A stretch of 64,000 nt of DNA from NCBI GenBank assembly GCA_938045475.1, contig CALIML010000017.1, positions 17,657 through 81,656 on the forward strand. Direction: 5' to 3'. The DNA comes from an uncultured Sulfolobales archaeon. Its GTDB lineage: Archaea; Thermoproteota; Thermoprotei_A; Sulfolobales; Desulfurococcaceae. The notes under the pieces are model-generated. The model did not search any database, was not told the DNA's origin, and saw only the letters and a program-made list of their open reading frames with translations. A program made the position numbers and the translations under genes. Shown here in pieces: positions 12,137 through 13,520 of the stretch; position 1 is the stretch's first letter; each line of letters starts with the position of its first letter.

Positions 12137-12383
12137 CAGTATTGTACGTACTATACTATACGTGGGAGTACTTATGCAAATGGATATATAAATATTACCT
12201 CCATAATCATATGTATGAATTCGATCTATAGGGTAAGCGGATTTAATTGATATAATTGATTCTTTATATCAATATACAATCGGTATTTCTAACAATATTT
12301 CTGATTACTGCATCTATGCTCCCCCAATTCATTTAACTGTCAATAAATTTATATAGGGAGAGAATGTTGTGTGACTTACTATA

Positions 12384-12388
12384 GGGTG
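12384..12388 (+). promoter_or_regulatory. Shine-Dalgarno-like GGGTG, 6 nt upstream of ATG 12395
   Basis: GGGTG TCAGGG ATG; complementary to the archaeal anti-SD core CACC(TCC). Confidence 0.55.
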
Positions 12389-12394
12389 TCAGGG

Positions 12395-13520
12395 ATGAGT
12401 CTTTAGCTATAGCAGTGATTACATAGAGAGGCTGGCTGTAGATAAGCGCAGCTTAAGAAATATACTTGTTGAACTAAGGAAGTGGAGGGCTCCAGCCACA
12501 GTTCTCCTAAGCCTTTATGTGCCTCCGGAAAGACCTATAAGTGATGTACTTAACTTGCTTAGACAAGAGCTTTCAATAACTGATAACATTAAGTTAAAGA
12601 AGACTAGGAACGCTGTTCAAAGAGCTCTTACAGCAACTATAGATAGATTGTCAAAGATCCTTAAAGTGCCTGAAAAAGGTCTGGCAGTATTCTGTGGCGA
12701 AAACATGGATACGGGGGACTTCATATGCGTTACGCTATCCCCGCCTGAGCCAGTGCCAGTGTTCTTCTATAGAACTGACAAGGAATTCCACCTGGAGTTC
12801 CTTGAGCCAATGGTTGAAGAGAGCAATGTAATTGGTTTAATAATAGTTGAGAGAGATGCTGCTACAATAGGGTTACTTAAGGGCAATAGACTTGAAGTTC
12901 TTGACGAACTTGAAGACTACATACCTGGTAAGCACACTAAAGGAGGTCAAAGCCAGAGGAGGTACGATAGAGTCATAGAGCAAATGGTTCATGAATTCTA
13001 CAAGAGAGTTGGGGAAAGAGCTAAAGAGTACTTTGAGCCATACCTTGAAGGCGGGAAGTTAAAGGCAATACTCTTAGGAGGCCCAGCCTACGCTAAGTAC
13101 GACTTCCTAGAGGGAGACTACTTAGACTACAGGTTGAAGCAGCTTCTCATACCGAAGTTCATTGATGTAGCTTATCAAGGTGAAGTAGGCCTTAGGGAAA
13201 TGATCATTAAAGCAAATGATGTACTGAAGGAACAACAATACTTAGAGGCTCTTAAAGCTATAGATGAATTTAAACTACACTTAGTGAAGGACGATGGATT
13301 AACTATTTACGGAGATGAAGAGTTAAGAAAGGCCTTGGAGGCAGGGGCAGTGGAGAAACTCATAGTAAGTGAGGAGAGGAGCGATTTAGATGAGTGGATT
13401 GAGCTAGCTAAAAGAAGCGGTGCAAAAATCGTTGTAATAAACGATGAAATACCTGAAGGAGCCTGGGTCAATAAGACATTCGGTGGAGTAGTTGGAATAC
13501 TTAGATACAGGCTGTTTTAA
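12395..13520 (+). CDS. prf1: Archaeal peptide chain release factor aRF1; full-length product apparently needs a +1 frameshift at 12401-12407
   Basis: Body contains NIKL (NIKS-like), GKHTKGGQSQRRYDR (GGQ), CGENMDTGDF. ORF track starts at GTG 12519, but conserved N-terminal residues SYSSDYIERLAVDKRSLRNILVELRKWRAPATVLLSLYVPPERP are encoded upstream in the same frame, which has no ATG/GTG/TTG back to a TGA at 12396. ATG 12395 reads ATG AGT CTT TAG; a +1 shift at CTT-T-AGC joins the frames (about 374 aa). Confidence 0.85.

Follow-up and report, generated by a model that had tools for sequence, protein, structure and literature searches.

A candidate +1 programmed ribosomal frameshift with an autoregulatory role in aRF1, the gene for the archaeal class-I release factor

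A stretch of DNA of 64,000 nucleotides from an uncultured Sulfolobales archaeon (contig CALIML010000017.1), referred to here as the window, carries a gene for the release factor aRF1 with no evident start codon at the head of its frame. The body of the gene (12405..13520, on the forward strand, as are all features described below) encodes 371 amino acids over positions 12405-13517 and ends with a TAA stop codon at 13518-13520. Its frame is closed upstream by a TGA (12396..12398), after which the earliest in-frame ATG, GTG or TTG is the GTG at 12519. A mini-ORF of three codons was identified at 12395..12406, consisting of ATG (12395), AGT (12398), CTT (12401) and TAG (12404-12406), that is Met-Ser-Leu-stop, followed by a C at 12407. 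Skipping of a single base, the T at 12404, at the proposed +1 shift site CTT-TAG-C (12401..12407) joins the frame of this mini-ORF to that of aRF1, and the body appears to be reachable only by such a shift. The resulting product would begin MSL-SYSSDYIERL and be 374 amino acids in length. An earlier note on this locus had described this arrangement and read it as a possible autoregulatory frameshift in the style of bacterial RF2; its coordinates, the closure of the frame at 12396, the lack of a start before 12519 and a product of approximately 374 amino acids were all reproduced, and the RF2-style reading itself is supported by the comparisons that follow.

The body of the gene is a complete archaeal class-I release factor, aRF1. 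It matches the NCBIfam model TIGR03676 (aRF1) at 440 bits against a cut-off of 234.7, which agrees with the identity first assigned to it, and it contains the Pfam eRF1 domains 1, 2 and 3 (PF03463, PF03464, PF03465), with the GGQ motif present in the translation as GGQSQRR. The closest solved chain is that of aRF1 in PDB entry 3agk (488 bits). Only domains of the eRF1 family were found, and the protein is not a homologue of bacterial RF2. It is known that aRF1 reads all three stop codons, and it is the sole general release factor in many thermophilic archaea, including Sulfolobus.

The start of aRF1 very probably contains a +1 programmed ribosomal frameshift through which the factor regulates its own synthesis. 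Ribosomes would initiate at ATG 12395 and read Met-Ser-Leu. The UAG would then occupy the A site while tRNA-Leu is paired with CUU in the P site, and aRF1 and slippage would compete at the stop. When aRF1 is abundant, termination at the UAG would follow and the tripeptide, presumably inert, would be lost. When it is scarce, a longer pause would allow the tRNA to re-pair one base forward on UUU, after which translation would go on in the frame of the release factor to give the full-length protein. Since aRF1 reads all three stops, it would in this manner sense total termination capacity. Initiation at the mini-ORF, the +1 shift by ribosomes and the dependence of this shift on the level of aRF1 are steps that we infer from sequence comparison.

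The 5’ ends of aRF1 genes were compared among approximately 190 genomes of the phylum and 80 named records (the two sets overlapping), with families denoted by codes. The element was found in 96 distinct genomes from eight families of the same class, including finished single-contig assemblies, although counts from these genomes are not independent as the genomes are related. It is thus far more widespread than the earlier note knew. In the family of the window (f1; 16 genera, with approximately 61-73% protein identity to the aRF1 of the window), all 38 genomes possess (ATG or GTG)-NNN-(TTT or CTT)-TAG-(C/T) at the start of aRF1, the start codon being ATG in 35. All 24 Sulfolobaceae (f11) possess ATG-AGT-CTT-TGA-N or, once, CTT-TAG-C, again with ATG in every genome, and the exact CTT-TGA-C motif of bacterial RF2 is present in 14 of them. 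Alignment with sister genomes, as had been suggested earlier, therefore places start-NNN-NTT-stop at the same position throughout both families. Named Sulfolobaceae with the element include Candidatus Aramenus and two Metallosphaera species, M. javensis and M. yellowstonensis, and further members are taken by us to be S. acidocaldarius DSM 639, S. tokodaii, M. sedula and M. cuprina. The predicted shift product of S. acidocaldarius would begin MSL-DRYEINR. In families f2 (including Zestosphaera), f3, f4, f5, f12 and part of f10, the arrangement is a start codon, one to three codons, ATT (rarely GTT or TAT) and TAG-Y, with ATT-TGA-T occurring once. Plain in-frame aRF1 starts were found in f6, f7, f8 and f9, which we take, partly by record name, to be the families of Acidilobus/Aeropyrum/Caldisphaera, Ignicoccus, Hyperthermus/Pyrodictium and Fervidicoccus, respectively.

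The composition of the junction fits slippage at a stop codon. Among the 96 genomes, the codon before the stop was CTT in 32, ATT in 31, TTT in 30, GTT in two and TAT in one (NTT in 95, NTC in none), the stop itself was TAG in 72 and TGA in 24 but never TAA, and the base following it was C in 71, T in 22, G in two and A in one (C or T in 93). The aRF1-frame codon that overlaps the NTT and the stop was TTT in 95 of the 96, with TTT making up only 25-48% of Phe codons in the same genes. A change to TTC would be silent in aRF1 yet abolish the stop of the mini-ORF, and it is therefore this stop that is kept. The CTT-stop-C motif emphasized in the earlier note is present in the window, but CTT is not essential, with relatives using TTT, ATT and, rarely, GTT. 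In P-site slippage from NTT to TTT, UUU would re-pair perfectly and CUU with a G-U pair at position 1, whereas AUU and GUU would be mismatched; the poor re-pairing of these last two codons with UUU counts against the +1 slippage model. Within the window, a start-N3..9-NTT-stop arrangement in a frame joinable by a +1 shift was identified for one of 54 long frames, that of aRF1, and this rarity, together with recurrence in 96 genomes, argues that the element is more than a product of chance.

Conventional means of initiation were also considered. An in-frame upstream start was rejected, as none exists between the last in-frame stop and body residue 14 in 46 of 86 genomes, including the window and all 14 Sulfolobaceae of that set; some f1 members, in which TGG stands in place of the closing TGA, do have an in-frame GTG or ATG upstream. 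Initiation at GTG 12519 would leave out approximately 38 body residues, among them those of the conserved WxAPATVLLSLY region, and reinitiation after the mini-ORF finds no conserved in-frame start codon downstream; both were rejected.

Two purine-rich motifs precede the shift site. The first, GGGTG (12384..12388), had been noted previously as a Shine-Dalgarno (SD)-like site and is consistent with initiation at ATG 12395, with GGTG found 6-8 nt 5’ of the start codon in 23 of the 38 members of f1. The second, AGGG (12391..12394), had been missed, and its last base lies 6 nt 5’ of the slip codon. In nearly all of the families, the spacing between an SD-like motif and the slip codon is exactly 6 nt, the motif being AGGG in 24/38 genomes of f1, 22/24 of f11, 4/4 of f4 and 5/7 of f3, as well as in f10, and GGTG or GGGG in f2 (GGTG in 14/16), f5 and f12. 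The anti-SD sequence used for these assignments was taken from general knowledge rather than from the 16S rRNA of these genomes. The AGGG/GGTG motif may stimulate the shift, as judged from its conserved position. However, its spacing is 6 nt versus 3 nt in the bacterial RF2 gene prfB (PMC12421855), and cryo-EM has suggested that the ribosomal protein eS26 of Saccharolobus is incompatible with an SD:anti-SD duplex (PMC11698992). Both points count against the frameshift model, and on their account the motif is treated here as a conserved element with a putative action.

A TATA-box-like sequence, TTTATATA (12348..12355; consensus score 7.2), would place the transcript start at approximately 12378, 5’ of ATG 12395, although a match of this quality was obtained with 12% of shuffled sequences and is weak when taken alone. 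The spacing of such boxes in relatives resembles that of the window. For Sulfolobaceae and f2, TATA-like boxes identified by a simple consensus score put the transcript start only a few bases 5’ of the mini-ORF, so that no room would be left for an upstream start. Downstream of the shift site, the window and one relative (taken to be S. marinus) were predicted to fold no better than shuffled sequences (z of approximately 0.5), and this missing RNA structure counts against the frameshift model.

In three genomes (G156 at locus L133 and G158 at L310 of f2 genus g27, and G043 at L051 of f5), GGTG/GGGG-N6/7-ATT-TAG was found to be kept with no ATG, GTG or TTG in the phase of the mini-ORF. One possibility is that the AUU directly before the UAG acts as initiator in these; their lack of a clear mini-ORF start counts against the frameshift model.

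Of the explanations that compete with autoregulation, the strongest is a constitutive +1 shift that occurs at a fixed rate, blind to the level of aRF1. This is considered unlikely. Dependence on aRF1 is inferred rather than seen experimentally, the element has disappeared from several families, which do without it, and stop-associated shifting of a non-regulatory nature is known in Euplotes (in an excerpt of PMC10235951); against this, the site lies in a release factor gene, at codon 3-5 and at a stop that is read by the product, in a single one of the long frames of the window, and UAA is used in none of the 96 genomes. Non-canonical initiation in the aRF1 frame just past TGA 12396, with the mini-ORF being meaningless, is a much weaker proposition. 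Archaea can use rare start codons, and relatives in families f31 and f36 have ATA at the expected start position, but the aRF1-frame codons found there (GTC/GTT/GCT/GTA, TTT, then AGY/GAN) form no near-start set, as they include GCT, GCC, GGA and GCA. Furthermore, such initiation leaves the kept ATG, NTT and TAG/TGA of the other frame, and the near-invariant TTT, unaccounted for.

Less probable still is slippage of RNA polymerase on a run of T, which would put a fraction of mRNAs in one frame. TTTTT is present at the site in many f1 members, but most other members have only TTT (CTTTAG, ATTTAG, CTTTGA), a run too short for RNA polymerase slippage from what is known of the process, and polymerase slippage requires neither a stop at this position nor an ATG two codons upstream. 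Lastly, a mistake in sequencing or assembly, or decay of the gene, has a negligible likelihood, for although the genome of the window is a draft of 24 contigs, an assembly error (named in the earlier note as the main alternative) is refuted by the same junction in its relatives, many of them finished single-contig genomes and one a sister genome at 94% protein identity, and the remaining frame is intact with all aRF1 domains present.

The autoregulatory frameshift proposed for aRF1 can be compared with recoding systems already described. That of bacterial RF2 is a textbook example of a protein whose production is governed by the very reaction that it carries out. Shared with prfB are a C favoured after the stop, a purine-rich SD-like motif upstream and a widespread distribution with clade-wise losses (PMC12421855, PMC13245932 and an excerpt of PMC5009743). 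In both, a release factor gene is split by an early stop that its own product reads, with the body in the +1 frame, and the slip site is NTT-T; the CUU-U slip of prfB (CUU UGA C) is that of the window and all 24 Sulfolobaceae, CTT being the codon in 32 of the 96 genomes and TTT, ATT, GTT or, once, TAT in the rest. The aRF1 element differs in that it belongs to an unrelated factor of the eRF1 family, its stop is mostly UAG, the prfB stop being a UGA in weak context (UGA C), the shift would occur at codon 3-5 rather than at approximately codon 26, the SD-like motif lies further from the slip codon, and the slip codon may also be UUU or AUU. In addition, as aRF1 is understood to read every stop codon, it would respond to termination capacity as a whole.

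A nearer relative in terms of protein family is found in viruses. Mimivirus R726 and Megavirus mg280 encode eRF1/aRF1-type factors with a +1 shift at CUU-UAG-C (CUU-UAA-C in Megavirus), and the frameshift product was detected on expression in E. coli (PMC3521657). The earlier note knew of no archaeal case, and none was found here in the open-licence literature searched, but because of the published R726 site the eRF1/aRF1 superfamily is not without precedent. R726 differs in being viral, in having an additional stop that is read through and in a shift that is not at the third codon (PMC3521657); aRF1 possesses a single stop, the rest of its frame being open. The authors of that study took the mechanism to be confined to bacterial factors, with no counterpart in archaea or eukaryotes (PMC3521657). 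In a crenarchaeal cellular gene, programmed frameshifting has been described for fucA1 of Saccharolobus solfataricus, but there it is a -1 shift at A-AAA-AAT rather than at a stop, with no release factor and no feedback involved; a review of archaeal recoding gave fucA1 as the sole -1 case reported in archaea and listed no release factor (PMC8211752).

No mention of a frameshift in archaeal aRF1 was found in the excerpt of PMC5009743, the GeneTack survey (PMC3711429) or the prfB survey (PMC12421855), from which the word 'archaea' is absent, and no earlier description was identified in the open-licence PubMed Central literature, to which the search was confined. What appears to be new, and is well supported by the comparisons above, is a putative stop-driven +1 autoregulation of a release factor, no earlier report having been found either for this factor or for archaea. 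If correct, it would clearly exemplify convergent evolution, an unrelated archaeal factor having arrived at the logic of RF2 and, in Sulfolobaceae, at its CTT-TGA-C motif as well. As far as was found, no +1 programmed frameshift would have been known before in a cellular gene of archaea, nor any archaeal recoding whose purpose is obvious, and aRF1 start sites would likely be misannotated in many archaeal genomes. Genetic tools exist for one genus that has the element (Sulfolobus acidocaldarius), making it directly testable.

In a tree of 96 aRF1 proteins, the distribution of shift and plain states requires at least six changes. The element may have been gained once, following the divergence of f7, and later lost from f6, f8, f9, some members of f10 and genus g27 of f2, where G035, G157 and G159 have an in-frame GTG; several independent gains are also possible. 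The bacterial prfB frameshift has likewise been lost clade by clade (PMC13245932).

It is conceivable, though doubtful, that thermophilic archaea generally adjust the amount of their one release factor through recoding at a stop close to the start. Such recoding would be ancestral in most of the order studied and would have a second origin in f31 and f36, where GAA-UAA/UAG would be the site of a -1-type slip or of a restart at AUA; the aRF1 genes of these two families likewise have a conserved tiny ORF and no near in-frame start after it.

Other unusual aRF1 genes were observed among the genomes compared. That of G172 (L054), possibly Pyrolobus fumarii by our assumption, has no in-frame start, unlike that of its sister G173, which begins with a plain ATG; the cause may be an error of one base in the sequence or else another kind of shift, at GGT-TGA-C. 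In G234 and G255 of family f20, one in-frame TAG lies inside the aRF1 match, and these are possibly pyrrolysine users. Many aRF1 genes of f31 (L271-L285, L302-L305), which we take to be the family of Caldivirga and Vulcanisaeta (Caldivirga maquilingensis, Vulcanisaeta distributa), have no near in-frame ATG, GTG or TTG. A tiny ORF, (A/G)TG-...-CTG-GAA-TAA or ATG-GAA-TAA, precedes the body in f31, in a phase that needs a -1 (or +2) shift and with GGAATA invariant. Here the ribosome could slip by -1 at GAA-UAA, or translation could begin at an AUA that overlaps the stop. In f36, G288, G298 and G313 (L183, L296, L297) have ATG-GAA-TAG-C before aRF1 in the same phase as in f31, and G303 (L182), of a sister genus, has a plain ATG at the site where these three have ATA.
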